IMG/VR virus record: IMGVR_UViG_3300025449_000038
Coordinates: 1 to 30,683 of that record
From: a virus
Length of the DNA stretch: 30,683 nt
Strand: one strand, 5' to 3'
In this document: one piece after another, positions 3,956 through 21,776 of the stretch
Layout of the letters: each line of letters begins with the position of its first letter
Position numbering within the stretch: position 1 is the stretch's first letter
Translations under genes and position numbers: made by a program
The notes under the pieces: generated by a model
The model's database searches: none
Told to the model about the DNA's origin: nothing
Seen by the model: only the letters and a program-made list of their open reading frames with translations

Positions 3956-3956
3956 C

Positions 3957-4863: not shown

Positions 4864-4867
4864 ACGA

Positions 4868-4931: not shown

Positions 4932-4935
4932 TCTT

Positions 4936-5526: not shown

Positions 5527-5529
5527 TGT

Positions 5530-5715: not shown

Positions 5716-5718
5716 TGT

Positions 5719-6710: not shown

Positions 6711-6712
6711 AT

Positions 6713-7780: not shown

Positions 7781-7782
7781 GT

Positions 7783-8955: not shown

Positions 8956-8957
8956 AA

Positions 8958-9155
8958 TTAACATTCTCCCATGTTGGCTAACATTATCAAGTAATCCACC
9001 ACTTCAGTATTATCCATGCTTTGATAATCGTCAAGAGTAGCGGTGTCAATTAACTTAAATGCTTTATCAGGAACATTCACACCCAAGTATTTCAACTCAC
9101 GCATTTCAATTTCTAAATTATCCCGCCAATCATTTAATTTTGATGTTATTGCCAT
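8958..9155 (-). CDS. Hypothetical protein (65 aa) between VWA and MoxR genes
   Basis: Begins MAITSKLNDWRDNLEIEMRE and ends YLIMLANMGEC; acidic and mainly helical in appearance. AAAGGATAAAGTAA precedes the ATG as ribosome-binding site. It overlaps the end of the upstream gene by 26 bases. Its place next to the VWA gene suggests an accessory role, not shown by sequence. Confidence 0.7.
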   Translation of the reverse strand: MAITSKLNDWRDNLEIEMRELKYLGVNVPDKAFKLIDTATLDDYQSMDNTEVVDYLIMLANMGEC

Positions 9156-9330
9156 TTACTTTATCCTTTCCCATGTTTAAACAGTCTGCCTTGCGTTCTG
9201 CACCTAACCGACTGCTATATGTTCGCTTCAACTTCTCAAACTGATAACGACCATCTACGACCATATTGCGACCAACTCCATACCTTTCATCTGAGTGGTC
9301 AAGTGCGTATGCTTCCCATTCTAAGACCAT
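9130..9330 (-). CDS. Hypothetical protein (66 aa)
   Basis: The start is assigned to ATG 9328-9330 (MVLEWEAYALDHSDERYG) because AGAGAGG lies six bases upstream; an in-frame ATG at 9360 has no good site and would overlap the upstream gene. Basic C-terminus ending NGNNIKIK. Contains one GTTTAAAC near its 3' end, read as CLN. No family recognised. Confidence 0.65.
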   Translation of the reverse strand: MVLEWEAYALDHSDERYGVGRNMVVDGRYQFEKLKRTYSSRLGAERKADCLNMGKDKVNGNNIKIK

Positions 9331-9331
9331 A

Positions 9332-9520
9332 CTAGACCTCTCTAACTGATACTGTGTCATTTTCTATGATTACCTTAGCCCTACCCTCGCCAATCATCTT
9401 AAAGCCTAACTGTTGCACTATGATGACCATTTTATATTCTGACATTTTATGCCTGAAATAAACTGCAAGGGTAGTGGCTAGGATAGCCCAAGCCAATAAA
9501 AACAATTCGCTATATTCCAT
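9332..9520 (-). CDS. Small membrane protein (62 aa)
   Basis: Begins MEYSELFLLAWAILATTLAV, one clear N-terminal transmembrane helix (residues 6-22), followed by a ~40-residue soluble tail ending DTVSVREV. The start is preceded by GGGGAAAGGGTTTAAACATC, the SD plus GTTTAAAC arrangement. Likely a single-pass inner-membrane protein of unknown role. Confidence 0.7.
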   Translation of the reverse strand: MEYSELFLLAWAILATTLAVYFRHKMSEYKMVIIVQQLGFKMIGEGRAKVIIENDTVSVREV

Positions 9521-9525
9521 GATGT

Positions 9526-9693
9526 TTAAACCCTTTCCCCTGTATCAATGATTTCGCAACTCAACTCGTCAATCTCCATACAGTCGGGAATAGAATAAAC
9601 AACTTCGTCTAACTTCTTCCATGCCTGTTCTTCCGAATTGGCTTCAACTGATGTATAGATAATGGCTTCTTCTCTAAATGTATAGATGGTCAT
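9526..9693 (-). CDS. Small hypothetical protein (55 aa)
   Basis: Start placed at the ATG that abuts GTTTAAAC (9694-9701), giving MTIYTFREEAIIYTSVEANS; an in-frame ATG at 9714 lies in the preceding gene. Pattern of strands and one helix (EEQAWKKLDEVV) resembles small ferredoxin-like phage proteins of unknown function. It ends in Val at the TAA of the next GTTTAAAC. Confidence 0.65.
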   Translation of the reverse strand: MTIYTFREEAIIYTSVEANSEEQAWKKLDEVVYSIPDCMEIDELSCEIIDTGERV

Positions 9694-9700
9694 GTTTAAA

Positions 9701-10777
9701 CTATGCCTGTGCAAATAAGTAATTGTTAGCGGTAGCCCATTTAATAAATGCTTGGTTCGTGCCTACTGTTGCCTTCTTGCTGGTTCGCATTACTGATGTT
9801 GCAAATAGCCCCTGTTGCTCTTTACTAAGCCTTTCCAAATACTTCATAAACTTAGAAATTGTGTCCTTCTCAACTCGCTGGATTGCTGAATAGACCAACA
9901 TACAAACTGCACTTGGGCTTTTTGGTATTGGTGTGGTTTCGGGCTTGTCAATGATCGCTTCCCATTCGGGCAACTCATCACTTAATTGGATAATGCTCAT
10001 CATGTCGTAGGTTGCCCTGTTGCCAATCGTGCCTTTTAGCGTGTGGGCTAATACATCATGCCCTAAACCCTTTGCCTTTTTGATAATGTCACTCGCCTTG
10101 TTTAAACTGCGTGGGGTGCAAAATGCGGGGCGGGGTGTGCGTGGGTCGTAGATGTATTCGTTATCTTTAGGGTCGGAATAATCCTCAAAACTTGCCAACA
10201 TCTGCGGGAATTGCTTCACACTTAGCAACACTTCGGGGGCTATGTCATGGTCAATCGCCCAATCAATCCATTGGTCTGCGGTTGGTTTACCTACCTTGAC
10301 CACACTCATGCGGTTGCGGGCATGGGGCGGTAATGTATCACCAATGCCTTCTGTGGCTAGGTTGGTTGTAGCGAAAACAATAGAGCCTTCAGGTAGGCTA
10401 TAAGTGCCTAATTTTCTCTCTAACATTAAACGCAAGCAAGCATTCATAACTGCTTTGGAAGCCTTGCCGATCTCATCAAGCATTAAAACAATAGGCTTGT
10501 CAAAGTGAAAGCCAAACTCCTCATTGGGGATAAATGAACACACCTCAACACCATCAAGGGTGCGAATCTTTGGCACTAAAAAATCGCCAACATCTTTGGT
10601 AGTCATGTCCCCATAACAAAAGTGGTGCGTGGTGTTTAAACGACTTTGAAGGATTTTGAGGATAGACGATTTACCTATCCCCATCTCACCTTGAGCCAAT
10701 ACTGTGGTGGTATCGCCTACTGCTTGAATCAGGTCAGCACATTGGGTCAATGATATTGTTTTGTATAAATCTGACAT
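9701..10777 (-). CDS. MoxR-type AAA+ ATPase
   Basis: A 358-residue AAA+ protein with Walker A GEMGIGKSS (about 30-38), Walker B VLMLDEIG (about 97-104), sensor-1 ATTN (about 136-139) and arginine-finger-like ARNR (about 153-156). The layout matches the MoxR/AAA_5 group, which remodels or activates partner proteins together with VWA-domain proteins. The VWA/metallopeptidase protein lies downstream in the same operon with four small genes between. The start follows AGGATAATTAA. A hairpin and a short possible open frame precede it. Stop TAG sits next to GTTTAAAC. Role in infection is unknown. Confidence 0.85.
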   Translation of the reverse strand: MSDLYKTISLTQCADLIQAVGDTTTVLAQGEMGIGKSSILKILQSRLNTTHHFCYGDMTTKDVGDFLVPKIRTLDGVEVCSFIPNEEFGFHFDKPIVLMLDEIGKASKAVMNACLRLMLERKLGTYSLPEGSIVFATTNLATEGIGDTLPPHARNRMSVVKVGKPTADQWIDWAIDHDIAPEVLLSVKQFPQMLASFEDYSDPKDNEYIYDPRTPRPAFCTPRSLNKASDIIKKAKGLGHDVLAHTLKGTIGNRATYDMMSIIQLSDELPEWEAIIDKPETTPIPKSPSAVCMLVYSAIQRVEKDTISKFMKYLERLSKEQQGLFATSVMRTSKKATVGTNQAFIKWATANNYLFAQA

Positions 10778-10812
10778 TTAATTATCCTATTAGTTTATGG
10801 TGGTTTAATACT

Positions 10813-10827
10813 GCCCCTTTCGGGGGC
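10813..10827. other. GC hairpin upstream of MoxR gene
   Basis: GCCCC-TTTC-GGGGGC forms a short strong stem about 35 bases before the MoxR start. There is no U-run on the minus side, so it is not a typical terminator; it may affect mRNA stability or translation. Confidence 0.4.
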
Positions 10828-10828
10828 T

Positions 10829-10930
10829 TTAAAACTGTTTACATGGCTTCACCCATTGGTTGTAAGGGATTACTGCCCCCGCTTGTCTAGGCGGGTTTAT
10901 GGTTCGCTTGCTGGTGGTTTTATCTCCCAT
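10829..10930 (-). CDS. Possible 33-aa peptide
   Basis: A 34-codon frame MGDKTTSKRTINPPRQAGAV... ending CKQF. It fills the otherwise empty 10,778-10,944 interval and reads through the GCCCCCGC/GGCGGG stretch. No convincing SD precedes the ATG. Could equally be a leader segment of the MoxR transcript. Confidence 0.3.
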   Translation of the reverse strand: MGDKTTSKRTINPPRQAGAVIPYNQWVKPCKQF

Positions 10931-10944
10931 TAGTTAGCAAATTT

Positions 10945-11031
10945 TCAGTAAGTATATAGATCAGGGGCTAAACAAAAAACTAGGAATAACCCTACTAAAA
11001 GCAAAGCCACTAAATAATCATCTCTCGTCAT
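10945..11031 (-). CDS. Single-pass membrane miniprotein (28 aa)
   Basis: ATG abuts GTTTAAAC with GGAG directly before (GGAGTTTAAACATG), identical in layout to confirmed gene starts nearby. The peptide MTRDDYLVALLLVGLFLV... has one strong hydrophobic helix (about 7-21) and ends DLYTY. The start overlaps the end of the upstream gene. A realistic membrane peptide, perhaps regulatory, that would be missed by length cut-offs. Confidence 0.55.
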   Translation of the reverse strand: MTRDDYLVALLLVGLFLVFCLAPDLYTY

Positions 11032-11206
11032 GTTTAAACTCCATAATCCAATCAATGTAAACTTCATTAAAATCTAGCCATCTAGCTAGTCGCTTGCGGT
11101 TGGGCTTGTCAATGGGGTAATTAAGCAATAGCCCCCACTCACCCACTCTAACCAACTCAAAAAATTCAGGCTGGTTAGGCTTGCGGTATAACTTAATCAC
11201 CCGCAT
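11018..11206 (-). CDS. Hypothetical protein (62 aa)
   Basis: Begins MRVIKLYRKPNQPEFFELVR; a beta-rich N-terminus (VGEWGLLLNYP), then a basic helix and WLDFNEVYIDW. The start is preceded by GGGGTGTTTAAACA. The opening of three antiparallel strands suggests a small barrel, but no family is recognised. Confidence 0.7.
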   Translation of the reverse strand: MRVIKLYRKPNQPEFFELVRVGEWGLLLNYPIDKPNRKRLARWLDFNEVYIDWIMEFKHDER

Positions 11207-11396
11207 TGTTTAAACACCCCGCCCATCTTTGCCATACTAATTCGTCTTTGACTAACCTACGCATTAACTGACTAGAATTAAGGTCTAATTCTTTACAGTA
11301 GGTGTCCCATCTTTGTTTTAATTCCAAATCTACAAAAACAGTTAAGTGTGTTCCTGTCGTATCGGTCTTTTCGGTTCGTGGTCTGCCCCTAGCCAT
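11193..11396 (-). CDS. Ribbon-helix-helix DNA-binding protein (67 aa)
   Basis: Start placed at the ATG abutting GTTTAAAC (11397-11404) with AAAAAGGT before it. The protein begins MARGRPRTEKTD, an arm typical of basic DNA-binding tails, then THLTVFV (about 16-22) as the beta ribbon, and two helices (DLELKQRWDTYCKEL, then SSQLMRRLVKDEL) in the Arc/MetJ/CopG arrangement. Such proteins bind short palindromes as dimers or tetramers. It is the only clear small DNA-binding regulator in the early arm, so it is a candidate to recognise GTTTAAAC or the TTTCATAATGTGAAA sites (inference). Confidence 0.7.
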   Translation of the reverse strand: MARGRPRTEKTDTTGTHLTVFVDLELKQRWDTYCKELDLNSSQLMRRLVKDELVWQRWAGCLNNAGD

Positions 11397-11697
11397 GTTT
11401 AAACACCTTTTTATCAATCCATTTAAAATTAAATGAAGGTTGTGGGTTGCCGAAAGGCGATTCAATCATCTCAATCGTTGCGTAATCTGCTTCGACAACA
11501 GGGGGGTGTTTAAACGCTTCGGCTATCCATTCGGCTTCTTGTAAACTTTGAGCCACACTATCTCCAAAAGTAAACCCGCTATATTCATCTGCACCCACAT
11601 CATAACTAAATTCATGGGCTTTAATAATGGGTTCGTCATCAGGGTAGCGTGAATCTATATAACGAATGGTGCGGTGATGCCAATAAAAATCTGACAT
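11389..11697 (-). CDS. Hypothetical protein (102 aa)
   Basis: Begins MSDFYWHHRTIRYIDSRYPD, acidic with many aromatic residues; contains FTFGDSVAQSLQEAEWIAEAF. The start is preceded by GGGGAGTGTTTAAACC. It overlaps the RHH gene by eight bases. A GTTTAAAC at 11508 is internal (AFKHPP). Function unknown. Confidence 0.7.
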   Translation of the reverse strand: MSDFYWHHRTIRYIDSRYPDDEPIIKAHEFSYDVGADEYSGFTFGDSVAQSLQEAEWIAEAFKHPPVVEADYATIEMIESPFGNPQPSFNFKWIDKKVFKHG

Positions 11698-11700
11698 GGT

Positions 11701-11844
11701 TTAAACACTCCCCAAGTTTTTAATGTTGGTTATCATGCGGGAATGTGGCGGGTCATCAAATCTGATCGTTATCCACTCGCCTTCAATAGATAGGATTGTG
11801 GCTAGTGATTCGCCACACCATAACACCCTATCGCCCCTACTCAT
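11701..11844 (-). CDS. Small hypothetical protein (47 aa)
   Basis: MSRGDRVLWCGESLATILSI, then WITIRFDDPPHSRMI and the C-terminus KNLGSV. The opening RGDRVLW...ATILSIEGEWITIRFDD looks like a small SH3/KOW-like barrel. The stop is the TAA in GTTTAAAC at 11699. It overlaps the end of the upstream membrane gene by eight bases. Confidence 0.6.
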   Translation of the reverse strand: MSRGDRVLWCGESLATILSIEGEWITIRFDDPPHSRMITNIKNLGSV

Positions 11845-11992
11845 GGTTTTCGCCCAAAATAAAGCCGAAAGTAAAGCAAGACAACACTAGCCCCGCAACT
11901 GCCCAAAATGGGGTTTGTTCTATGACTGTCTGTATGCACAACACAATCAGGGTGACAGTAATGCTTATGACTGCAATAAAAAATGTGTTCAT
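11837..11992 (-). CDS. Two-pass membrane protein (51 aa)
   Basis: MNTFFIAVISITVTLIVLCI forms one transmembrane helix; FWAVAGLVLSCFTFGFIL forms a second; tail GENHE. The start follows GGAAGGTGTTTAAACACC. Likely a small inner-membrane protein. No lysis or exclusion motif can be identified; small size and two helices would also fit a holin-like or superinfection role, unproven. Confidence 0.6.
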   Translation of the reverse strand: MNTFFIAVISITVTLIVLCIQTVIEQTPFWAVAGLVLSCFTFGFILGENHE

Positions 11993-11997
11993 GGTGT

Positions 11998-12246
11998 TTA
12001 AACACCTTCCTGATTGAACATACTGTCAAAAAACACTTGGGGCTTTTCTGTGGCTTGCACACCATCTAGCCACTTGTTTATATGTCGGCTAGTGGTGACT
12101 GACCATTTTTTATCGGTGCGATAGTAGTCATAGGTGTGCTTGTCATAACAGGCAACAGGGGTCGCATAACTGAATAAAACATTATGGCGGGGGGTTTCGA
12201 TTAGTGTCATGTTGCTTGCTAATTGTTTGAGTTTGAATGATTGCAT
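11998..12246 (-). CDS. Conserved phage hypothetical protein (82 aa)
   Basis: Begins MQSFKLKQLASNMTLIETPR. The core NVLFSYATPVA, then YYRTDKKWSVTTSRHINKWL, resembles a small protein family recurrent in proteobacterial phages (recognised by pattern, no search). Function unknown. The start follows a GC hairpin and GTTTAAAC without a clear SD outside the stem, so translation may depend on hairpin opening. It ends EGV at the TAA of the next GTTTAAAC. Confidence 0.75.
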   Translation of the reverse strand: MQSFKLKQLASNMTLIETPRHNVLFSYATPVACYDKHTYDYYRTDKKWSVTTSRHINKWLDGVQATEKPQVFFDSMFNQEGV

Positions 12247-12256
12247 GGTTTAAACA

Positions 12257-12276
12257 TGGCGGGGTTTCCCCCGCCA
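12257..12276 (-). terminator. Terminator-like hairpin before 82-aa gene
   Basis: TGGCGGGG and CCCCGCCA pair over 8 bp with a 4-nt loop. On the minus strand the stem is followed by TGTTTAAACC rather than a long U-run. It separates the genes at 12289 and 11998. It could be a weak terminator, or a hairpin that masks the start of the 82-aa gene. Confidence 0.45.
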
Positions 12277-12288
12277 AGCCTTTCGTGG

Positions 12289-12492
12289 TTAAATGGTTGG
12301 TTTGCCTAGCATTAGTGCTAATTCGTTGTAAACAGATTCCCTTGAGCCTTTTAATCCTAGCTCTTTTTTAATCAGGCTATACATGGTCATACCTCTGCTC
12401 ATGCGTAGCCCTTGCAATTCAAGTTTTAAACCCCTTAGCATGGTGCAATATCTAAAGTGTGCGATTTGTGTCGGGTTGGTGATCATTGTCAT
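12289..12492 (-). CDS. Conserved phage hypothetical protein (67 aa)
   Basis: Start at the ATG abutting GTTTAAAC (12493-12500) with GGAGT before it; an in-frame ATG at 12507 lies in the upstream gene. Sequence MTMITNPTQIAHFRYCTMLR, then LKLELQGLRMSRGMTMYSLIKKELGLKGSRESV. The LRSxLKLE..GM...G.SxYxIIKxExGxKG pattern is common in small phage proteins of unknown function. Helical. Confidence 0.75.
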   Translation of the reverse strand: MTMITNPTQIAHFRYCTMLRGLKLELQGLRMSRGMTMYSLIKKELGLKGSRESVYNELALMLGKPTI

Positions 12493-12494
12493 GT

Positions 12495-12860
12495 TTAAAC
12501 ACTCCATTGGTTGATTGGATAATTTTCGGGATTGGCGAGGGTAATCCCCTCAATGATTGGGAAGAATTGCCCGCCCAGACTGTCATCATAAAATGACCCT
12601 TGAGTTAATTGGCGAGCATAAATAACCGAATCACGATAAATTGTGCCATCACTATTGCCTAGCACAATTCGCCCCGTTAATTTGCCTTTTAGGGCTTGGG
12701 TGTCGCTTGATGTTGCACCACTTCTAAAGTGCATTTTAGAATTGGCGGTGTGCCTGTCTGTATCCCAATATGGCTTATAAGCGAATACTGCGACATTGGC
12801 GGGTTCACCATCACTACATAACACCCGCTTGGCGGTGATTCTATAAACATAAACTCCCAT
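12495..12860 (-). CDS. Hypothetical protein (121 aa)
   Basis: Begins MGVYVYRITAKRVLCSDGEP, beta-rich, with GNSDGTIYRDSVIYARQLTQ and C-terminus PINQWSV. An AAGGAATAGAACATT site precedes the ATG. This is the first gene behind leader repeat copy 1, so it heads the operon running down to about 4.9 kb. Fold and function are not recognised. Confidence 0.75.
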   Translation of the reverse strand: MGVYVYRITAKRVLCSDGEPANVAVFAYKPYWDTDRHTANSKMHFRSGATSSDTQALKGKLTGRIVLGNSDGTIYRDSVIYARQLTQGSFYDDSLGGQFFPIIEGITLANPENYPINQWSV

Positions 12861-12978
12861 AATGTTCTATTCCTTTTTAGGTTAGTAATCAAGTGCGAAT
12901 TGCACAATCAAATTAGATCAAATTGCGGGGGCATTGTCTAATATAGAAAAGTAATATAGAAGCGGGTTTTTATACTTA

Positions 12979-13080
12979 GGGTTTACCCTCGAAAATCGAG
13001 ATCAGGGGGCGGGTGAGGTAAGGGTAGCCTGAGCATAAAAAACGGCTAAAAAGGGGCTTAAAATGAGTCTGATTAGATTA
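12979..13080 (-). repeat. Conserved leader repeat, copy 1
   Basis: Shares with 14386-14486 the blocks (minus strand) TCAGACTCATTTTAAGCCCC-TTTTTAGC, CAGGCTACCCT, CTCGATTTTCGAG (a self-pairing stem) and GGGTAAACCC. Both copies lie upstream of a minus-strand operon. The order of blocks and spacing are kept while the linkers differ, as expected for a structured RNA or a regulatory DNA element. Confidence 0.65.
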
Positions 13081-13150
13081 TGGAATATAGGGCTAATAGG
13101 GGGTGCGATTTTTTGGCGGGTGTGGCATTGTTTAAACAATATGAGGGGCA

Positions 13151-13176
13151 AAAAAAATCGGGGCATAGCCCCGATT
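13151..13176 (-). terminator. Rho-independent terminator (minus strand)
   Basis: AATCGGGGC-TAT-GCCCCGATT gives a perfect 9-bp stem followed by an unbroken U-run on the minus strand (eight T including the stem end). It lies 18 bases past the stop of the papain/C39-like gene and closes that operon. Confidence 0.85.
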
Positions 13177-13193
13177 GGTTTAAACATGGCGAG

Positions 13194-13586
13194 CTATGAT
13201 TTTCTAATCCAATACCCATAAATCATTTTATGAGAGCAATCCCATGTGTCATGCGGTATTCCATCTATGATAGCCACATAATGCCCCGCTTGTCGAGCTA
13301 TCACTATCCCGCTAGGCATATCGGAACAGTAGGCTTTTCTGCCCTCAAATTTTGGGGCTGGTTGCCATAGCCAATTAAACACCAATAAAACATTGGCATA
13401 AATATGCCTATCTACCCCATTCCTAGCCGATTTAATGCCATGATGTTTGAAATTCGCATGGGCTATATGGTCATAAGCCTTTTGATAATCCATAGCTAAG
13501 GCAATAGCCATAGCCCTAGCCCCGCAATCGCCAGCAGAGCCTTTATAGCCCGCCTTAGCTCTGCCCCCATCATTAAATTCGAACAT
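13194..13586 (-). CDS. Papain/C39-like phage protein (130 aa)
   Basis: Begins MFEFNDGGRAKAGYKGSAGD and continues CGARAMAIAL. The FNDGGR..AGYKG.AGDC.ARAMAIA opening, the GHYVAIIDG centre (about 101-109), HDTWD and the closing YGYWIRKS match a recurrent phage and prophage family with a papain-like (C39-type) arrangement: Cys21, His102 and a following Asp are the plausible catalytic residues. Substrate unknown; a peptidase, amidase or transglutaminase-like activity is possible. RBS GGAAGGAAAATAGATT. A terminator follows directly. Confidence 0.65.
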   Translation of the reverse strand: MFEFNDGGRAKAGYKGSAGDCGARAMAIALAMDYQKAYDHIAHANFKHHGIKSARNGVDRHIYANVLLVFNWLWQPAPKFEGRKAYCSDMPSGIVIARQAGHYVAIIDGIPHDTWDCSHKMIYGYWIRKS

Positions 13587-13614
13587 AATCTATTTTCCTT
13601 CCGTAGTGTTTAAA

Positions 13615-13637
13615 CAGGGGGCAAGATTGCCCCCCTG
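13615..13637 (-). terminator. Terminator-like hairpin after SprT-like gene
   Basis: CAGGGGGCAA pairs with TTGCCCCC(C)TG with one bulged base. On the minus strand the stem is followed by TTTAAAC, so any U-run is short. It lies between the stop of the SprT-like gene and the start of the papain-like gene. Probably partial termination. Confidence 0.5.
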
Positions 13638-13643
13638 ATTGAT

Positions 13644-14294
13644 TTAGCCCTCGAATCCCTCGCCATCTTCGGGCTCATATTCTGACCACATTTTGCCATG
13701 ACCTAGCGGGCATTTTGGCATGGCTATTTTTATCCACTTGCTAGTGGTGCGGATAGCGTAGCCACACTTCAAACACTTACAGGCTAGATTGCGGGTTGTT
13801 TGCCTTTTGTAGCTTGCGGTGAGTTTTGAGTGTGGATATTCGCCCTCATTTTTAACCCACTCTTGAATCAAGGCACTAAGCCACTCGCCAGCTTTAGTGC
13901 TGGTGAGTTTGCCCTCTAATCCAACTGATCTAGCACACAAGCCAAACACCTTATTGTGACCCTCTTTATTGCCAACAGTAGCGTGGCATAGCTCATGGAT
14001 AAGAACATCAACTACCCGAACAGAATCGGCTAGGCTTGGCACAATCATTATTTGAATGGTGTCATCAGATGACATGGAAGCGGGATAGCACTCGCCAAGT
14101 GCAAATCTCTTTTGGTGTTTCTTAGTGTGAATCCCGCCACTAGCTAGTGAACAGGATAGGCGAACATTGGCGGGGATTGCGTAGCCCTTTGAAGCAAATA
14201 GGGGGCGAATGTATTTATCGGTGATGAGAGTAAGCCAAGCCTCTCTGTTGGCATTGGTGCTGGTTGGTGCTGGTTGGTAGGTGAGTAATAACAT
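13644..14294 (-). CDS. SprT-like zinc metalloprotease
   Basis: Start chosen at ATG 14292-14294 (MLLLTYQPAPTSTNANREAW), preceded by AAGGAATAAAACA; an upstream in-frame ATG at 14348 directly after GTTTAAAC would add 18 residues but has no SD. The catalytic motif HELCH (about 100-104) with a downstream His in EGHNKVFG is a HExxH...H zinc site. The C-terminal CKCLKCGY (about 172-179) and CPLGH (about 195-199) form a zinc ribbon, the usual SprT/Spartan plan. Family members degrade DNA-crosslinked or DNA-bound proteins. A phage role in clearing bound proteins from DNA is inferred. Leader repeat copy 2 lies upstream. Confidence 0.8.
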   Translation of the reverse strand: MLLLTYQPAPTSTNANREAWLTLITDKYIRPLFASKGYAIPANVRLSCSLASGGIHTKKHQKRFALGECYPASMSSDDTIQIMIVPSLADSVRVVDVLIHELCHATVGNKEGHNKVFGLCARSVGLEGKLTSTKAGEWLSALIQEWVKNEGEYPHSKLTASYKRQTTRNLACKCLKCGYAIRTTSKWIKIAMPKCPLGHGKMWSEYEPEDGEGFEG

Positions 14295-14385
14295 TGTTTT
14301 ATTCCTTATGTTTTGGTTAAGTGGAAAATCCACACCTAATAATCGCATGGTTTAAACATTGTCCATATTAGGGGAAACCCTATTA

Positions 14386-14486
14386 GGGTAAACCCTCGAA
14401 AATCGAGATCGCAAGGGGGTTGGGGCTAGGGTAGCCTGACCGATCAACTCAGCTAAAAAGGGGCTTAAAATGCGTCTGATAGGATA
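14386..14486 (-). repeat. Conserved leader repeat, copy 2
   Basis: Minus-strand blocks TCAGACGCATTTTAAGCCCC-TTTTTAGC, CAGGCTACCCT, CTCGATTTTCGAG and GGGTTTACCC are shared with copy 1 (12979-13080). It lies ~100-190 bases before the SprT-like gene. An operator-like TTTCACAATGTGGGA (14487-14501) touches its upstream end. Confidence 0.65.
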
Positions 14487-14501
14487 TTTCACAATGTGGG
14501 A
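14487..14501 (+). promoter_or_regulatory. Operator-like inverted repeat, copy 6
   Basis: TTTCACAATGTGGGA, a member of the TTYCR-YAWTG-YGRNA family, at the upstream edge of leader repeat copy 2, where a promoter for the SprT-like gene would be expected. Confidence 0.5.
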
Positions 14502-14555
14502 TTTGGGGGTATCTATTCACCCCTTCCCCTCAACCCTCGCACCCGCATAGCCATG

Positions 14556-14693
14556 CCACCTGATAGCCATGTTGCACCGCAACACCAATGCACCAACATG
14601 GTGCAATCCCTTACTGCCAATGTGGGTATTGTTTAAACCACCTCGCTACCTGTCAGCCATGTTGCACCGCACCATCATGCACCACTATGGTGC
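14556..14693. repeat. Tandem ~90-bp degenerate repeat with palindromes
   Basis: Two units share AGCCATGTTGCACCGCA, then ATGCACCA...ATGGTGC. The palindromes GCACCAACATGGTGC (14590-14604) and GCACCACTATGGTGC (14679-14693) have the same 6-bp arms and differ only in the 3-bp centre; they are 89 bp apart. An (A/C)ATTGTGGG-like sequence follows each. Possible iterons of an origin or binding sites of a regulator. Confidence 0.6.
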
Positions 14694-14728
14694 TTCCGCA
14701 TTGTGGGATAGAGTTTCATAATGTGAAA
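14694..14728 (+). promoter_or_regulatory. Two adjacent operator-like sites (copies 7 and 8)
   Basis: TTCCGCATTGTGGGA (14694-14708) and TTTCATAATGTGAAA (14714-14728) are centred 20 bp apart, the same spacing as the pair at 4904/4924 in the sigma promoter. Same-face helical spacing suggests cooperative binding. Confidence 0.6.
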
Positions 14729-14845
14729 AAGGAATTCTTATTTAGCTAAGAGGGGGGTCTGTTTAAACTCGATACCCCTAAAAAATAGACCCCCGTGCCC
14801 TCGGGACTGGGGCCCCACCAAGACTAAGTTTTTATATTTTTCTAC

Positions 14846-15066: not shown

Positions 15067-15102
15067 GGGCGTTTTTAATTGGGTTTGTGCATTAGTATAT
15101 GT
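15067..15102 (+). promoter_or_regulatory. Phage late promoter copy B
   Basis: GGGCGT, 11 bases, TTTGTGCATTAGTATATGT. It fits the consensus GGGCGK-N11-TTTKTGCATTAGTATA. It would transcribe the 102-aa gene, the intein-like gene and TerL. The ATG of the 102-aa gene begins at motif offset 36, as in copy D. Confidence 0.8.
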
Positions 15103-15411
15103 ATGAGTCAATACGTGTACCAAATCCACGGAGCATTGGAAAATGCAGAGGGCCAGTTCAAAGGGCTAAGGGTTTTGGTATGCGACTTATACAATTTCGA
15201 GTCTGTGGATGTCCCAGTCGAAATACTAGACAATGAAACGGCAAAATATATCCAGTTTCGCTTAAAAGTAACAACCCAGCCATTGGATATTCAAAAGCTA
15301 CCCGTTTCAGTTCAAAACCGAATCAGAGGGCCGTTAGGGCACTGGTTAGATTATTGGGTGACTAAAAACTTCTATGGCGGTCCTAGCAAATCAAAAGATA
15401 CTAACGCTTGA
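15103..15411 (+). CDS. Hypothetical protein (102 aa), first late gene
   Basis: Start at ATG 15103 (MSQYVYQIHGALENAEGQFK); an upstream TTG at 15079 is inside the promoter. No SD is visible, and the ATG is so close to the -10-like block that the transcript may have little or no leader. Contains DVPVEILDNETAKYIQFRLK and ends SKSKDTNA. Position before TerL would suit a small terminase subunit, but there is no helix-turn-helix signature, so this is not claimed. It overlaps the intein-like gene by 38 bases. Confidence 0.65.
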   Translation: MSQYVYQIHGALENAEGQFKGLRVLVCDLYNFESVDVPVEILDNETAKYIQFRLKVTTQPLDIQKLPVSVQNRIRGPLGHWLDYWVTKNFYGGPSKSKDTNA

Positions 15412-16369
15412 TTATTGGAAAAGAGCAGACCAGGTCCAAGAAGGTGACCTGTTACTAGACCGCAATGGTCAACCTGCCAAAGTAACCTTAGTCCAAAAAT
15501 ACACCCCGCCACATTGCTATGAGGTTTTATTCAACGACCACCTGACCATAGCTGGAGATGATAAGCTGGGGTTTGTGGTTGAGACACACCTTGACCGCTG
15601 CAAAGAATCCCAATACAAAGGTCTACGTCCTAGAGACCGCCAATACCGGGTCAAGCAAATCTCAGACCTACTTATTGAACCCCTACATAATCCAGTCCAG
15701 CATCATTTTATCTATTCGGTTCCAACAACCAAACCACTGCAGCTACCGCACCAAGACTTACCAGTGCCGCCGTTTATTTTTGGATTCTGGTTCTTTAACC
15801 GTAAGAAGCGCAAACAGATGGTAGCATTCCAGGACTTTCAAGATGACATACATCAGGCCTTTAGAGATGCTGGATATCGTGTTAAACTAGGGTGTAAAAT
15901 AAAACAATTGCGCTATGAGTTTACAACAACCCCTACAATCGAATCCCAGCTTGCACCTAATGTGCCAGTTCGTATCCCAAACAACTATCTCATGGGTTCG
16001 TATGAGCAAAGACTTGAATTGCTCAAAGGAATACTGCAAGCTAAACACCGGCAATACAATCCACGCACTAAAGTGTTTAGAATAACAAACATGAACGAGG
16101 CTTTGGTACGTCAATGTCAATGGTTAGTGGAATCGTTGGGCCATAAAACCACGTTTTTCTTCAACGACCAGGTTAAAAATCACACCCTTACGTTTAAATC
16201 TCGCCTAAATTTGATACCTAACCAAATTCCACCAGTCAAAAAACGAGTGTTAGCCCGCCGCCAGATCAGAGAAATCTACGAAATCCAGCAACAACCTTGC
16301 GTTCACATTGAAACCACTGGAGATCGCGGTACGTTTTCAGTAGGAGAAGGATTTATTTCATGCCTTTAA
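15374..16369 (+). CDS. Stand-alone degenerate intein-like (Hint + LAGLIDADG) protein
   Basis: 331 residues with intein order. The N-terminus MAVLANQKILT aligns with intein block A but has Ala in place of the nucleophilic Cys, then VQEGDLLLDRNGQPAKVTLV as in Hint domains. The block B region (LTIAGDDKLGFVV) lacks the TxxH motif. Two LAGLIDADG-like helices are present: PPFIFGFWFFNRKKRKQ (about 132-148) and RLELLKGILQAKHRQ (about 213-227); the acidic catalytic positions read N/R and Q/K. The C-terminus IYEIQQQ...GTFSVGEGFISCL matches blocks F and G but has IS instead of HN before Cys. It should therefore neither splice nor cut DNA in the usual way. It sits immediately before TerL, overlapping its start by 10 bases in another frame. 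The SD is poor. Role unknown; domestication for packaging is an inference. Confidence 0.75.
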   Translation: MAVLANQKILTLDYWKRADQVQEGDLLLDRNGQPAKVTLVQKYTPPHCYEVLFNDHLTIAGDDKLGFVVETHLDRCKESQYKGLRPRDRQYRVKQISDLLIEPLHNPVQHHFIYSVPTTKPLQLPHQDLPVPPFIFGFWFFNRKKRKQMVAFQDFQDDIHQAFRDAGYRVKLGCKIKQLRYEFTTTPTIESQLAPNVPVRIPNNYLMGSYEQRLELLKGILQAKHRQYNPRTKVFRITNMNEALVRQCQWLVESLGHKTTFFFNDQVKNHTLTFKSRLNLIPNQIPPVKKRVLARRQIREIYEIQQQPCVHIETTGDRGTFSVGEGFISCL

Positions 16370-17805
16370 CAGCAAAACAAGAGCTAGTCCTTAAAAAATT
16401 TGCTCAAAACAATAAACACTGGCCCAAACAGCAGCTAGAAGCGGCTATGTGGCAAGTAAAATGGCAGATTCAAGCCCTGCCACACCAAAGGGAGCCAGAA
16501 GATGGAGAATATGACACGTTCCTTATGCTTGCCGGTCGTGGATCTGGCAAGACGCACACTGCTTCTCATTGGATTGGCATTCGTGCTTGGAAATACGATA
16601 ACACACGCTGGCTCGTCACAGCCCCAACCTCAAACGATATCCGAGCAACCTGCTTCGAAGGGGATAGTGGACTCCTTAATATCATCCCACCCAGCATTAT
16701 CAGGGATTACAACAAGTCGCTCTTCGAAATCACCCTTACCAACGGCTCCATTATACAGGGAATCCCCGCCTCCGAACCGGAACGCTACCGTGGTAAACAA
16801 TTCCACGGCGCCTGGTTCGACGAGCTCTGCGCATTCGACTACCTTGACGAAGCCTACGACGGTGTGCAGTTCACGTTGCGTCTTAAAGATCCCCGCATCC
16901 CCCGAGTCCAGCAAATAATCACCACAACCCCCAAGCCAAAAGAACTAATTGTAGACCTTAACGAGGGAAAAATTGGTGGCGATGTGTATGTGGTCAACGC
17001 TTCGTCCTTTGACAACCGAGAAAACCTATCTGAAACCTTCTTCAAGCAGTTAGAAACATACGAAGGCACCGACATGGGCCGCCAAGAGATCTATGGCGAG
17101 ATCTTGGACCCAGAAGCATCTGGTATTGTCAAACGTAAATGGTTTAAAATGTGGCCAGCCTCAATTCCAACCCCAGACCTTGAGTACGTTATTGTTTCCT
17201 ACGACCCGGCTACCAGCGAAAAAACAACCAATGACCCAACCGCATGTACGGCGTGGGGCATTTTTGAAAAACAAGACGCTGGTACTTGTGTTATAATGCT
17301 AGATGCTTGGGACCATCACCTTAACTATCCTGAGTTGCGCCGTAAAGTAATTGATGACTACAAAGAGGTTGTGTACGGAGCCGACAATGATTTTGGTAAA
17401 GGCAAAAAAGCCGACATGGTTTTGATGGAAGACAAATCCGCTGGTATCTCACTGATCCAAGAACTTCAAGGTTCTGGTATTTATGTGCAAGGTTACAACC
17501 CAGGGCGGGCGGATAAAGTACAGCGTTTAAACATTGTGGCACCCCTAATTGCCAAAGGAAAAATTTATATTCCGGAAGATCCTGTAAAGAAAGGTGAGTT
17601 TGCAGACTGGTCCAAACGTTTCATACGGCAGGTGTGTTCTTTCCCAGTCGCTGGTGGGCATGACGATTATGTTGATTCTCTTAGTCAAGCACTTCGAGTA
17701 CTTAGAGATTCTGGTTGGGTTAATTTGGACCCGATTCCAGTTAGGGATTATGATTATGCGGACCAAGATCCATCTAAACGTAGTGCAAATCCTTATGCTC
17801 AATAA
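16360..17805 (+). CDS. terL: Terminase large subunit
   Basis: A 481-residue packaging motor. The ATPase domain has Walker A AGRGSGKT (about 58-65), Walker B AWFDE (about 151-155) and coupling motif ITTTPKP (about 187-193). The nuclease domain (RNase H fold) has VSYDPA (about 277-282), LMEDKSAG (about 352-359) and GGHDDYVD (about 448-455) supplying acidic metal ligands. It docks on the portal, translocates phage DNA into the prohead and cuts it. It begins within the last codons of the intein-like gene, with AGGAGAAGGA upstream as ribosome-binding sequence. It contains the only GTTTAAAC of the late arm (17525). Confidence 0.93.
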   Translation: MPLTAKQELVLKKFAQNNKHWPKQQLEAAMWQVKWQIQALPHQREPEDGEYDTFLMLAGRGSGKTHTASHWIGIRAWKYDNTRWLVTAPTSNDIRATCFEGDSGLLNIIPPSIIRDYNKSLFEITLTNGSIIQGIPASEPERYRGKQFHGAWFDELCAFDYLDEAYDGVQFTLRLKDPRIPRVQQIITTTPKPKELIVDLNEGKIGGDVYVVNASSFDNRENLSETFFKQLETYEGTDMGRQEIYGEILDPEASGIVKRKWFKMWPASIPTPDLEYVIVSYDPATSEKTTNDPTACTAWGIFEKQDAGTCVIMLDAWDHHLNYPELRRKVIDDYKEVVYGADNDFGKGKKADMVLMEDKSAGISLIQELQGSGIYVQGYNPGRADKVQRLNIVAPLIAKGKIYIPEDPVKKGEFADWSKRFIRQVCSFPVAGGHDDYVDSLSQALRVLRDSGWVNLDPIPVRDYDYADQDPSKRSANPYAQ

Positions 17806-17808
17806 TTA

Positions 17809-17848
17809 GGGCGGAAAATACGTTATTTGTGCATTAGTATAAGTAGGA
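17809..17848 (+). promoter_or_regulatory. Phage late promoter copy C
   Basis: GGGCGG, 11 bases, TTTGTGCATTAGTATAAGTAGGA begins four bases after the TerL stop. It would drive the HNH endonuclease, portal and 73-aa genes. Position 36 of the motif, ATG in copies B and D, is AGG here, and an ~80-base leader follows. Confidence 0.8.
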
Positions 17849-17879
17849 ATACGAAAAGCGCCTGCAGCGCCTGTTTGGA

Positions 17880-17923
17880 CCCTACATCCAATCTAGTTTC
17901 CGGCCAATTAAACTTGTAGGGAG
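17880..17923 (+). promoter_or_regulatory. SD-sequestering leader hairpin of HNH gene
   Basis: CCCTACA (17880-17886) pairs with TGTAGGG (17915-17921), which covers most of the SD GGGAG (17919-17923) of the HNH gene. AGTTT...AAACT forms an inner stem directly stacked on it. A GCGC-CTGCA-GCGC element lies just before. This should limit translation of the endonuclease. Confidence 0.55.
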
Positions 17924-17928
17924 TTAAA

Positions 17929-18402
17929 ATGAAAAAACTTAAACGTGGCGACGTACGTGAAGACGGTATGGTATTTTGGGTTAAAAGATCAACTTGCCAA
18001 AACGGTGAATATTGGATAACAAAAGATCAATACCTAAGTTTTAATAAAAAAGAACAAGATAGGCACCATAAACAAGTATCTTCCAAAGATGGTCACTTAA
18101 GAAAAAATTTAGCAAGTATAAAACGACGGGCTAAATTAAAAAATTTAGATTTTGATTTAGATTTTGATTATTTAATTAAAATTGCTCCAGATTTTTGCCC
18201 CATTTTAAATATAAAACTAGGATGGGGTCGTAGAACTAAAGGGATAGCAGAATTTGATAGCCCGTCATTGGACAGAATAAATCCAAAATTAGGATATACA
18301 AAAGGAAATGTTGCTTGGATTTCAAATAAAGCAAACATGATAAAAAATGATGCGCAGCCCGAAGAACTTCGAGCTGTAGCAAATTGGATGGAAACTCAAT
18401 AA
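17929..18402 (+). CDS. HNH-type homing endonuclease
   Basis: 157 residues beginning MKKLKRGDVREDGMVFWVKR. The C-terminal half has CPILNIKL (about 87-94), SPSLDRINPKLGYTKGNVAW (about 110-129) and ISNKANMIKNDA, the typical pattern of small phage HNH endonucleases (C..l...L, SLDRI...GY..GNV, AN.iKn). The DNA is more AT-rich than the flanking genes, which supports later insertion. It stands between TerL and portal, three bases before the portal start. Likely a free-standing mobile gene cutting phage relatives that lack it. Confidence 0.8.
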   Translation: MKKLKRGDVREDGMVFWVKRSTCQNGEYWITKDQYLSFNKKEQDRHHKQVSSKDGHLRKNLASIKRRAKLKNLDFDLDFDYLIKIAPDFCPILNIKLGWGRRTKGIAEFDSPSLDRINPKLGYTKGNVAWISNKANMIKNDAQPEELRAVANWMETQ

Positions 18403-18405
18403 CCT

Positions 18406-21321
18406 ATGGCCCAACCACAATTACCAATTCAAGCCGGAGCTGCCCTCCCAAGTTTGGACCGCGAGGAAGATGTACAACAAGCTGCGGATCAAGATGAAGA
18501 TATCGAGCAGCTTGAAGAAGCGCTTGGTTTGGATTCCGATGAAGCCGAACAAGAAGTTATTGAACTTGAAGACGGTTCTGTTGTAATCAACTATCAAGAA
18601 AAGAAAAGCCCAAAACAAGATCCAGATTTTTACACTAACCTGGCAGAGATCCTGGATGAAGATGTACTTGCCAACTTGGCAAACGAGTATCTTGACTACA
18701 TTGACGTAGACAAAGAGGCTCGCAGTGAAAGAGACAAACAGTACGAAGAAGGTCTTCGTCGTACAGGACTAGGTAAGGACGCACCTGGAGGAGCCACGTT
18801 TGACGGAGCTTCCAAAGTCGTCCACCCTGTTATGGCAGAAGCATGCGTTGACTTTGCTGCGTCTGCTGCTAAAGAACTTCTTCCACCAGATGGTATTGTT
18901 AAATCAAATATCAAAGGCGATGCAGACCGCATCAAAGAAGAAACAGCAAACCGTAAAGTATCATTTCTAAATTGGCAACTTTCTGAGCAGGTACCTGAAT
19001 ACCGCGACGAAATGGAGCAACTGCTCACACAACTTCCACTTGGCGGATCGCAGTATCTCAAGTGGCGCTTTGATGACGAACAAAAACGTCCTCTGTGCGA
19101 ATGGGTTCCAATTGACAACATCATTCTTCCTTATGCTGCAACCAACTTCTACACTGCACAGCGTGTAGCAGAGCAGCAAGACATTACAGAAGACACATAT
19201 CAAAAGCGTATTGACGACGGCACATACCGTGACCTCGATAATCTCAATTACAGCTCAGACGCACCACTAACAGATCAAACTCGTTCTGAAGTAGCGAACA
19301 ACAAGATTGAAGGCAAACGTGAACCTTCCAAAAACATTGATGGATTGCGTCGTGTTTATGAAATTACTTGTTACTTACGTTTAGAAGAAGATCCGTTAAC
19401 AGAAGGTCGTCGCGCCCCCTACATTTTAACAATTGATGAGTCAAGCGGTGACGTCTTGGCTCTTCGTCGTAACTGGGAAGCCAATGATGAGAAACTCGAA
19501 AAACTGGATTGGTATGTTGAGTTCAAATTCATTCCTTGGCGCGGTGCTTATGCTATTGGCCTCCCCCATCTTATTGGTGGCCTCTCTGCTGCTCTTACTG
19601 GTTCTCTACGTGCTTTGCTTGATGCTGCTCATATCAACAACAGTCAGACAATGCTTAAACTCAAAACTGGACGAGTTAGTGGCCAGTCTGACAGAATTGA
19701 ACCAACCCAAGTAATTGAAGTAGAATCTGGCCCCGGCATTACTGACATCCGTCAGATTGCTATGCCAATGCCGTTTAATCCACCTTCGTCAACTCTGTTT
19801 GATTTATTAGGTTGGTTAACAAACGCAGCAAAAGGCGTAGTTACAACGGCAGAAGAAAAGATTGGCGAGATTAACTCCAATGCTCCAGTCGGTACAACAC
19901 AAGCTCTGATTGAGCAAGGAGCTAAAGTATTCTCTAGCATCCATGCACGTTTACATCGCTCTCAGGCTAAATCCCTAGCAATTATTTCTCGTCTAAATCA
20001 CTGGTATTTAGAAGAGATGGACAACGAGTCTGGCTCTGAAGTTAAAGTACGTGACTTTGCTTATAACAACGATGTTCGTCCCGTTTCAGACCCTAACATT
20101 TTCTCTGAGACCCAGCGTTTAGCACAGAACCAAGCCCTGTTACAAATGGCTACCTCTGCGCCTCCTGGTATGTTTGACATCCGCGCTGTGTATCGCCGTG
20201 TATTAGGCCAGCTCAAGGTGCCTTCAGTAGATGAAGTGTTACCAAACCCATTAGGTGCTAAAGAATCTAACCCAGCTCTTGAAAACGTCTCAATGACTAT
20301 GGGCCGTCCAGCAGCTGCTTACCCAGACCAGGACCATTTAGCCCATATCAAGATTCACTTAGAGTACGCAATGAACCCAGCCTACGGTGGCAACCCCGTA
20401 ATTGGACCAACATTTGCACCACAAGCCTTGCAGCATATCAAGCAGCACTTGACATTGCACTATCTGCAGTCTGTTCGCGGTTATGTAGCTCAGGCTTCAG
20501 ACAATGGTAAAGATGTGTTTGATCTGCATCAAGAAAAACCAATGACACAGCAGGCGCAACAAGCTATTGCATTGGCTTCACAGTTGGTAAACGAAGAGTC
20601 ACAGCAAGATCTTGGACCATACATCCAACAGATCCAACAGTTGTCACAAAAAGTTCAACAGATGCAACAAGCTCAGCAGCAGTCTGCTATGATGGCTGAC
20701 CCAACAGCTGCAGTAATTCTCAAGACCCAAATGGCTGAGACTCAGCGTAAACAGCAAGAAGCTCAAGCTAAGATGCAACTTGACTTGCAAAAAGCACAAC
20801 AAGAGTACCAGATCAAAGTGGCTCAGTTGCAACAGCAAGTTCAAGAGTTGGCAGCTAAGTACACAACCCAATCTAACATTGATAGCCAACGTAATGCTAC
20901 AGATATTGCAATGGCTAATATCAACAACTCTGCTAAAGAACGTGTTGCAATGATTAGCGCTGGAGCCGCAATGGACCAGCAACAAGCTAAGTTAGAACAT
21001 GAGCAAAACATGTCTGCAATGGAAGCTACTATGGCTGCCGAACAAGATATCCGCCAACATGGATTAGAAGTTCAGCAGCAAGCATTCGAGCAACAAGCTG
21101 CCCAGGTTCAAAACAATATTGAGGCACAGCATCAAGCCACAATGGCACAGCAGCAACAAGCACAAGCTGCACAAGAGCATCAACAGGGCTTACAACAAGC
21201 CGATCAACAGCATCAACAACAGTTAGCCCAAGCAGACCAGCAGCATCAACAACAGATGCAGCAAATGCAAGAGCAACAAGCAGCACAACCACAGCAACAA
21301 CCACCCACAGAGGAAGCATAA
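18406..21321 (+). CDS. Portal protein with long Gln-rich tail
   Basis: 971 residues. After an acidic N-terminus (to about 65), the body contains ASKVVHPVMAEACVDFAASA, EYRDEMEQLLTQLPLGGSQY, PWRGAYAIGLPHLIGGLSAA and PVGTTQALIEQGAK, consistent with portal proteins of the podovirus/P22-like size class. From about 715 onward the protein is a Gln/Ala-rich coiled coil, ending with near-repeats (QQADQQHQQQ, QADQQHQQQ). The portal is the dodecameric DNA gate at the capsid vertex. The ATG has no close SD, probably because the HNH gene was inserted just upstream; coupling to its stop may help. It overlaps the next gene by one base (TAATG). Confidence 0.82.
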   Translation: MAQPQLPIQAGAALPSLDREEDVQQAADQDEDIEQLEEALGLDSDEAEQEVIELEDGSVVINYQEKKSPKQDPDFYTNLAEILDEDVLANLANEYLDYIDVDKEARSERDKQYEEGLRRTGLGKDAPGGATFDGASKVVHPVMAEACVDFAASAAKELLPPDGIVKSNIKGDADRIKEETANRKVSFLNWQLSEQVPEYRDEMEQLLTQLPLGGSQYLKWRFDDEQKRPLCEWVPIDNIILPYAATNFYTAQRVAEQQDITEDTYQKRIDDGTYRDLDNLNYSSDAPLTDQTRSEVANNKIEGKREPSKNIDGLRRVYEITCYLRLEEDPLTEGRRAPYILTIDESSGDVLALRRNWEANDEKLEKLDWYVEFKFIPWRGAYAIGLPHLIGGLSAALTGSLRALLDAAHINNSQTMLKLKTGRVSGQSDRIEPTQVIEVESGPGITDIRQIAMPMPFNPPSSTLFDLLGWLTNAAKGVVTTAEEKIGEINSNAPVGTTQALIEQGAKVFSSIHARLHRSQAKSLAIISRLNHWYLEEMDNESGSEVKVRDFAYNNDVRPVSDPNIFSETQRLAQNQALLQMATSAPPGMFDIRAVYRRVLGQLKVPSVDEVLPNPLGAKESNPALENVSMTMGRPAAAYPDQDHLAHIKIHLEYAMNPAYGGNPVIGPTFAPQALQHIKQHLTLHYLQSVRGYVAQASDNGKDVFDLHQEKPMTQQAQQAIALASQLVNEESQQDLGPYIQQIQQLSQKVQQMQQAQQQSAMMADPTAAVILKTQMAETQRKQQEAQAKMQLDLQKAQQEYQIKVAQLQQQVQELAAKYTTQSNIDSQRNATDIAMANINNSAKERVAMISAGAAMDQQQAKLEHEQNMSAMEATMAAEQDIRQHGLEVQQQAFEQQAAQVQNNIEAQHQATMAQQQQAQAAQEHQQGLQQADQQHQQQLAQADQQHQQQMQQMQEQQAAQPQQQPPTEEA

Positions 21322-21542
21322 TGGCAACTAAAAAACAAGACGGCGGAGAATTAGGTTTCAAAAAAGCCTATAAAATGACCGGCACTCCCGGTTACGCTGG
21401 CGGCCCAGATCAAAAAGTAGAAACTGGTGCATCCGGTAGCAAACGCGCTAATAACGCAGTATTAAACCAAAATAAAGTTAAATCAAGCAAAGTTGGTCCA
21501 GATAAGAATCTGAACGAAATTGGCGGTGGTAACTTTTATTAA
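21321..21542 (+). CDS. Small Gly/Lys-rich protein (73 aa)
   Basis: Begins MATKKQDGGELGFKKAYKMT and ends EIGGGNFY. Basic, low-complexity, probably disordered. It starts at the last base of the portal stop (TAATG), so translation is coupled. Likely a minor head component or assembly factor by position. No family recognised. Confidence 0.7.
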   Translation: MATKKQDGGELGFKKAYKMTGTPGYAGGPDQKVETGASGSKRANNAVLNQNKVKSSKVGPDKNLNEIGGGNFY

Positions 21543-21548
21543 AATTTG

Positions 21549-21586
21549 GGGCGGGTTTTTTAGTATTTTTGCATTAGTATAAATAT
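21549..21586 (+). promoter_or_regulatory. Phage late promoter copy D
   Basis: GGGCGG, 11 bases, TTTTTGCATTAGTATAAATA, containing TATAAATA, identical to the T4 late -10 sequence. It would drive the genes from 21585 to the terminator after the capsid gene. The ATG of the 63-aa gene begins at motif offset 36, overlapping the -10-like block. Confidence 0.8.
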
Positions 21587-21776
21587 GAAGGACCCAATCT
21601 CAGAATTTATTGGCCGCTTGAAAGAAGCTGGCGACGAATTGAGTCAGGCTATTACAGCTGGCGTCAATATCCACTCGTTCGATGACTATCGGGCAATGGT
21701 GGGTAGGCATGAGGGCTTAATGGAAGCTCTTGATATTTTAAACAACCTCTTGCAGGAGGATAGCGAGGCTGAATAG
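21585..21776 (+). CDS. Small hypothetical protein (63 aa)
   Basis: Begins MKDPISEFIGRLKEAGDELS; YRAMVGRHEGLMEALDIL near the C-terminus resembles small phage proteins often found beside structural genes. The ATG overlaps the promoter motif and has no SD. Either transcription from the preceding promoter provides the message, or translation is leaderless, or an internal codon is used. Confidence 0.65.
   Translation: MKDPISEFIGRLKEAGDELSQAITAGVNIHSFDDYRAMVGRHEGLMEALDILNNLLQEDSEAE

Follow-up and report, generated by a model that had tools for sequence, protein, structure and literature searches.

A Shine-Dalgarno-masking leader fold, kept by matched mutations before unrelated phage nuclease genes, has the look of a new RNA control element that they share

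The window, by which we mean the whole stretch of DNA analysed (a 30.7-kb viral record of 30,683 nucleotides), carries between its terminase and portal genes a late-type promoter (promoter C), a structured leader and an endonuclease gene (Table 1). The product of this gene matches phrog_3322 'endonuclease' (E = 1.4 × 10−31) and the HNH endonuclease phrog_3118 (1.5 × 10−8); it has no relative by sequence in the PDB, and its AlphaFold model is weak (mean pLDDT 65.5, below 50 in residues 103-140). The original prediction had called it an HNH homing endonuclease, of which the endonuclease part is borne out by the two phrog matches, whereas Pfam offered no HNH-type match (0 families). That the gene was inserted, as also predicted, is evident from L002 and L004, whose portals are 97-99% identical and in which only 62-64 bp lie between terminase and portal. 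Away from the insertion, the window and L002 are 94-100% alike; in the final 600 nt of the terminase gene identity drops from 89 to 76%, and it is back at 96-100% from portal nt 300 onward. The more distant phage L087 shares the leader, and its nuclease is 97% the same as that of the window; it is otherwise 80-89% identical to the window, but 100% identical in the last 100 nt of the terminase gene. This flank pattern is homing-like, in that co-conversion during homing would leave such a trace, and the combination seen here, presence or absence at one site among close relatives together with co-conversion-like flanks, is the one by which a free-standing homing endonuclease is recognised. Directly before the terminase gene, a 331-aa ORF (15374-16369, ending ...GEGFISCL) matches positions 83-318 of phrog_15 (terminase large subunit) and presumably resembles a free-standing Hint/intein-like domain. 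Elsewhere in the window, GTTTAAAC occurs 35 times, at 835-14768 and at 17525 (0.94 expected; largest of 100 shuffles, 5), nearly always among the minus-strand genes and in several cases only 0-3 nt ahead of a start codon (e.g. 5717, 7781, 11208, 11699, 12248 and 14350).

Table 1. Features of the terminase-portal junction in the window, with the basis of each assignment
Feature	Position	Strand	Basis
Promoter C: GGGCGG 17809-17814, 16 nt, GCATTAGT 17831-17838	17809-17838	+	motif copies and junction conservation
Predicted transcription start, +1 = A	17845	+	placed by GCATTAG-N7 and by the ATG register at site A
Structured leader RNA through start codon	17846-17931	+	covariance model R1
P1 5' arm GGAA, pairs with TTCC 17898-17901	17846-17849	+	other paired types in relatives
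P0 hairpin GCGC-CTGCA-GCGC	17858-17870	+	covarying stems in relatives
S1 5' arm GTTTGGA, pairs with 17887-17893, one T.T mismatch	17873-17879	+	20-leader table
S2 5' arm = S1 loop CCCTACA	17880-17886	+	11 S2 types, all perfectly complementary
S1 3' arm TCCAATC	17887-17893	+	20-leader table
P1 3' arm TTCC	17898-17901	+	other paired types in relatives
Putative P5: AACT 17911-17914 / AGTT 17922-17925, flanks S2 3' arm	17911-17925	+	ACT/AGT in 20 of 20 leaders
S2 3' arm TGTAGGG, holds GG of Shine-Dalgarno	17915-17921	+	11 S2 types, all perfectly complementary
Shine-Dalgarno GGAG	17920-17923	+	sequence; 5 nt before ATG
Endonuclease gene, phrog_3322, 157 aa, ATG at 17929	17929-18402	+	phrog match; gene absent in L002, L004-L007
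Portal gene, original first gene behind promoter C	18406-21321	+	phrog_1216; directly after promoter C in 47 junctions

The promoter-like motif is present in 4 copies in the window, a number reached by 0 of 100 shuffles. To establish to which gene promoter C belongs, we compared 80 portal relatives, 77 of which include the terminase end, giving 78 junctions with the window. The terminase-portal gap is 61-110 bp in 47 of these junctions and longer in 31. GGGCG and GCATTAG-type elements at a 16-nt spacing are found in all 78, including 47/47 without an insert, and because of this constancy we assign the promoter to the portal gene. Of the two possibilities raised in the original prediction, that the mobile gene carried the promoter or exploited it, the comparison, which had been proposed as a check, thus favours the second: judged from these junctions, the nuclease gene exploits the portal promoter and did not bring it. 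The leader is present in 4 of the 78 junctions (window, L001, L003 and L055), all with a nuclease, and absent from the other 74, which include junctions with different inserted ORFs. Other cargo ORFs, rich in repeats like LKTPQQxLxEEAG, stand behind this promoter in the relatives L040, L043, L051, L056, L063, L069 and others. Nuclease-free portal leaders (L008, L009, L016, L024, L042 and others) have a different short hairpin between promoter and ATG, which varies in sequence (e.g. TTGTTGC/GCAACAA).

Among 39 distinct site-A upstream regions, 38 have an ATG exactly 7 nt past GCATTAG (or GTATTAG), with a second ATG four bases earlier in 7 of the 38; L076 is the exception. A start codon at this place needs an mRNA that begins at or just before it, and by the same register we infer the +1 of promoter C to be A17845. 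Relative to it, GGGCGG lies at -36 to -31 and GCATTAGT at -14 to -7, a spacing as for a sigma-70-type promoter. The window encodes a sigma-factor-like protein (4285-4863, minus strand; phrog_351, 4 × 10−21), which is a candidate reader of the GGGCGG-N16-GCATTAG promoters. An ATG at the predicted +1 of a GCATTAG promoter also occurs in the window at 15087-15105 and 21569-21587, as in the 38/39 site-A regions of relatives, and these mRNAs are apparently leaderless. We also considered a start 6-7 nt past TATAAA, with which the late RNA would lack P1, and rejected it, as the site-A start codons would then lie upstream of it.

Comparison of relatives gives a leader of about 85 nt, in which P1 closes a three-way junction with the hairpins P0 and S1, and all 6-7 nt of the S1 loop are complementary to the segment containing the GG of the Shine-Dalgarno sequence (SD), with which they form helix S2. 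R1 matches the window at 17836-17931 with 90.5 bits (E = 5 × 10−18), the window being part of its training set. The masking of the SD by CCCTACA and TGTAGGG had been predicted with the same arms as we find, and the pairing is kept by compensatory changes; on the alignments described below, this hairpin is one helix of a larger RNA. The inner AGTTT/AAACT stem of the original prediction, in contrast, did not hold up: AGTTT is present in only 5 of 20 tabulated leaders (window, L085, L084, L107 and L114), the others having AGCTT, AGCCC and so on at that position, and in the conserved fold AGTTT spans J3/P1 whereas AAACT contains the P5 5' arm. The GCGCCTGCAGCGCC palindrome was considered as a terminator and rejected; it is P0, whose stems covary in relatives.

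The fold starts at the predicted +1 register in 15/15 promoter-borne leaders examined; in L087 P1 starts at +1, and in L219 it may extend two bases further upstream. Directly upstream of four site-3 leaders, and of L313, we saw no promoter of this kind. Because the fold begins at the predicted +1, the late RNA should hold it entirely, and A17845 lies upstream of every helix, such that promoter-C RNA and read-through RNA would both contain it. This bears on the I-TevI design of T4, where the position of the late promoter keeps part of the structure out of late transcripts (PMC2988022). The original prediction had proposed the I-TevI design for this locus, with a leader hairpin that blocks translation of early read-through RNA; under that design, late RNA would start inside the hairpin and escape it. 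The ingredients are indeed the same (a late-type promoter, an SD-masking structure and an endonuclease), and the SD lies in a helix as it does there, but a late start that excludes the structure is at odds with the predicted +1, with the ATG at that register in 38/39 site-A genes and with the four site-3 leaders that have no such promoter directly upstream. We consider this design very unlikely here.

To quantify the pairing, we tabulated 20 distinct leaders, namely 16 from a structure scan and the window, L085, L084 and L114 forms added by hand, as the scan misses these four owing to its demand for a 6-bp S1. For L018 and L313, the S1/S2 letters were taken from the DNA scan and kept in the S1/S2 and P5 counts, while their P0/J2 letters were mistyped; L021, nearly identical to L018, has no row of its own. 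With related contigs not being independent in these counts, 126/126 S2 cells are Watson-Crick and 11/11 S2 sequence types are perfect, compared to 0/110 perfect combinations when arms are swapped. In S1, 132 of 140 cells are Watson-Crick, 3 are G.U and 5 are mismatched, and 12/16 types are fully standard vs. 14/240 swapped combinations. The first divergent but matching S2 arms were CCCGTA/TACGGG, CCAGTA/TACTGG and CCGATA/TATCGG. Pair types in relatives include GAGGG/CCCTC, GGAAG/CTTCC and GGAC/GTCC for P1, and GGAGC/GCTCC, AAAGC/GCTTT, AGAGC/GCTCT and AGAGT/ACTCT for P0, which L084 lost by a 9-nt deletion that kept the remainder of the leader.

Covariation was counted on plain, structure-blind MAFFT alignments. 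The 9-sequence alignment is 99.1% paired, with a covariation of 0.432 vs. 0.141 in shuffles (0/500 reach it) and at most 0.060 in slid controls; one of five measures, further pair types, was not above shuffles (8 vs. 8.2). The 5-sequence alignment is 97.1% paired, with a covariation of 0.957 vs. 0.239 (0/500 reach it) and at most 0.157 when slid. A hairpin loop pairs with a distant stretch and both helices covary, as in a pseudoknot. One might suppose that the shared leader reflects only recent common descent and homing co-conversion, with incidental pairing and no RNA function: the window and HNH-2 leaders are nearly identical, and a conserved tract could ride with recombination. The compensatory changes over 11 S2 and 16 S1 types, together with the failure of the slid and shuffled controls, contradict this in the case of S1 and S2, provided that the alignments are right, which leaves it scarcely credible. 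It is comparison among relatives that establishes S1, S2 and their link to the SD, and likewise the promoter, the insertion and the association with nucleases, and it supports the prediction that a mobile endonuclease gene standing behind a late-type promoter has its SD masked.

Folding of single sequences was dropped as evidence, as the window fold is not significant against shuffles: 57 nt around the fold give z = -0.06 (87/200 shuffles fold equally well), and the bare 42-nt hairpin gives z = -1.49 (16/200). We consider the fold significant because its outer stem is kept by compensatory changes across relatives, not because of single-sequence energy. P1+P0+S1 is the unprompted minimum-energy fold in 3 of the 5 relatives folded (L147, L116 and L111) and is not in L018 or L313; in the window, the energy model prefers a simple S2 hairpin (-14.8 with P0) over P1+P0+S1 (-10.4), loop-loop pairing being uncounted. 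For L147, L116 and L111, the program also draws a small hairpin around the S2 3' arm, at the position of P5. ACT before and AGT after this arm are present in 20/20 leaders vs. 63/610 distinct GGAGT sites (leaders included), and P5 has at least 4 bp in 16/20 leaders, the fourth pair being A-T in 13, T-A in 3 and A.A in 4. The invariance of ACT/AGT leaves little covariation available, and because P5 hardly varies we call it inferred; it would turn S2 into a loop-loop kiss covering all of GGAG.

The structure scan required GGAG before the start codon, a perfect S2 of 6-7 bp and a flanking stem (S1) of at least 6 bp. In 430 loci (3.34 Mb) it found 16 valid distinct sites, compared to 5 matches in 10 shuffled sets together, and 15 of the 16 precede nuclease-like ORFs; a 17th match, L295, had a negative distance and was discarded as an artefact. 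The pattern scans are biased towards GGAGTTA and GGAGTATCAA forms; when the SD was omitted from the search pattern, there was no additional leader among 68 stretches. In total, counting over the scan listings, we found at least 35 copies of the leader in at least 33 contigs, window included. Among the leaders listed, it stands before five unrelated nuclease types, in six or more places and once before a native gene. The places are the terminase-portal junction (in the window and the majority of the others), a second promoter of the late type ahead of a small ORF rich in lysine and glycine (L111, L115, L125, L133 and L147), the gene starting at window 15103 (L018, L021 and L087), a helicase-like gene (L219), a gene starting MTAHALLSASGSKRWLSC or MSAHALLSASGSKRWLSC (L220, L225, L286 and L332), and another context in L313. 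The nucleases are phrog_3322 (window, L111, L118, L124, L125 and L147 by search; L107/L108, L114 and L116 by alignment; L133 and L332 by eye), HNH with NUMOD3 (L085 and its like), T5orf172, which we take to be a GIY-YIG relative (L018), Endonuclease_7 (L220, L225 and L286) and HNH_3 (L313); the ORF of L219 is HNH-like by eye, without a Pfam match. In L055, the window leader stands almost letter for letter before a different nuclease (HNH with NUMOD3, phrog_655; NUMOD1 below cut-off). Where a genome has two copies, their S2 5' arms can differ: one contig has both CCGATA and CCTAAC, and another has CCCTACA and CCATTC.

Relatives that keep the HNH gene and lack the hairpin, the case named in the original prediction as refuting, do exist at a distance: 4 of 10 HNH relatives have the leader, and the 6 without it (L095-L100; all read by eye, 5/6 also searched with R1) are more distant (52% or 32-38% identity) and at other places. 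The leader at 1501-1587 of L221 (minus strand) is decayed: its S1 loop is complementary to AATATG at the start codon, and it is followed by a fragmented nuclease ORF. Two further matches are regarded as non-members, as no S2 was seen: that in L198 (25.6 bits) precedes a NUMOD3-like ORF, and that in L246 (23.8 bits) lies within a gene. The low R1 matches in L050, L028, L029 and at window 21457-21546 (minus strand; 19-21 bits), opposite-strand matches over the L124-type leader (21.7 bits) and matches in L222-L224 (13.7-20.7 bits) were taken as noise. R1 found no leader in four isolate or named genomes searched whole, MW202545, Caulobacter phage RW, CRP-901 and HTVC027P (one 16.2-bit match, E = 0.4), and a blastn search of 50,697 phage records with two leaders as queries found none either. 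In GTDB genomes there was no leader among 79 pattern-fitting stretches, and a stricter pattern gave 0. Rfam yielded no meaningful match, whether for window 17700-18500, for 6 loci at the gathering threshold or for the leaders of L147 and L225 with E values of up to 1, and the titles and abstract beginnings found in searches of an open-access library contained no description of this RNA.

These observations make it quite probable that the leader is a cis-acting, 5'-terminal and portable translational repressor of homing nucleases. The SD of the mobile nuclease gene would be held in S2, the helix of loop and SD, in which the S1 and P5 hairpins probably form a kissing loop braced by the P1/P0/S1 three-way junction. 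The leader would thereby lower or gate translation of the nuclease from the late RNA, which is driven by a promoter of the host phage itself, the ribosome binding only once S2 (and P5) opens. Leader and nuclease may travel together, or the leader may be kept while nuclease genes are exchanged, and unrelated nucleases would thus share one control module. Repression of translation by the leader is our reading of this arrangement. Its degree is suggested by two observations. S2 duplex energies of -5.7 to -9.7 are near the SD/anti-SD value (about -6), and masking may therefore be modest, tuning rather than abolishing translation. In addition, one of the L087 leaders (593-688) directly precedes a native gene, another standing before the nuclease; if that gene is needed, the leader is not a complete off-switch, which favours tuning or gating.

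A role as an mRNA stabiliser or 5'-end protection element, with the SD pairing secondary, would suit a leader at the predicted 5' end, and the unrelated hairpins between promoter and ATG in nuclease-free portal leaders (e.g. L008 and L042) point the same way; we nevertheless think it unlikely, as the GG of the SD forms the end of S2 in every case and the fold was not found without GGAG except in the decayed L221. A conditional form of the repressor explanation, possible though doubtful, is a ligand- or protein-responsive riboswitch or operator, in which the unpaired GAA (J1) and TAG (J3) would be a binding site that opens or locks S2. Most rows are conserved outside the helices, and a leader that serves a native gene in L087 must be openable; on the other hand, J1, J3 and the P0 loop vary in distant members (L018, L313 and the L225 group), the shared nucleotides may reflect recent common descent, and no ligand or partner is known. 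Tentatively, the repressor may also represent a new class, a conditional translational switch adopted as a common control part by mobile nucleases of unrelated families. Its kissing-loop leader would begin at the late start site of the phage, the loop pairs of copies in one genome would have diversified so that each copy folds on itself, and a phage or host factor would open it late in infection.

In the TAR-TAR* and RNAI-RNAII kissing complexes, loops of 6-7 nt are fully complementary. The S1 loop resembles them in this complementarity, with the pairing here proposed to lie within one molecule and to include the ribosome-binding site. In the preQ1 and SAM-II riboswitches, the SD lies inside a pseudoknot helix; unlike these, the leader has no Rfam match and no known ligand, and its genes are mobile nucleases rather than metabolic genes. 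The gene 32 mRNA of T4/T2 has a pseudoknot 67 nt upstream of the start codon that nucleates gp32 binding (PMC3014915); it is likewise a 5' pseudoknot of a phage mRNA that governs translation, as proposed here, but in our leader the pairing includes the SD itself. Leaders that sequester the ribosome-binding site are known for I-TevI, I-TevII, I-TevIII, segB and Aeh1 mobE (PMC2988022). As far as that account describes them, they share with the present case a phage endonuclease gene, an SD in an RNA helix and a phage promoter nearby. They differ in being local hairpins escaped via the start site, whereas here we find a 5'-terminal three-way junction with long-range loop-SD pairing, a fold that the late RNA is predicted to contain and that unrelated nuclease families have in common.

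Masking of the ribosome-binding site of homing endonucleases has so far been known as gene-by-gene hairpins in T4-like phages. From the sequence comparisons, the fold described here, kept by matched mutations before unrelated nuclease genes, has the look of a new RNA control element that these genes share. If a compact, compensated fold is common to several unrelated nuclease families and is used again behind many promoters, selfish genes would be seen to pass on regulation itself as one of their parts; small, clear and testable with reporters, the fold lets one ask directly whether a regulatory RNA spreads together with a nuclease.
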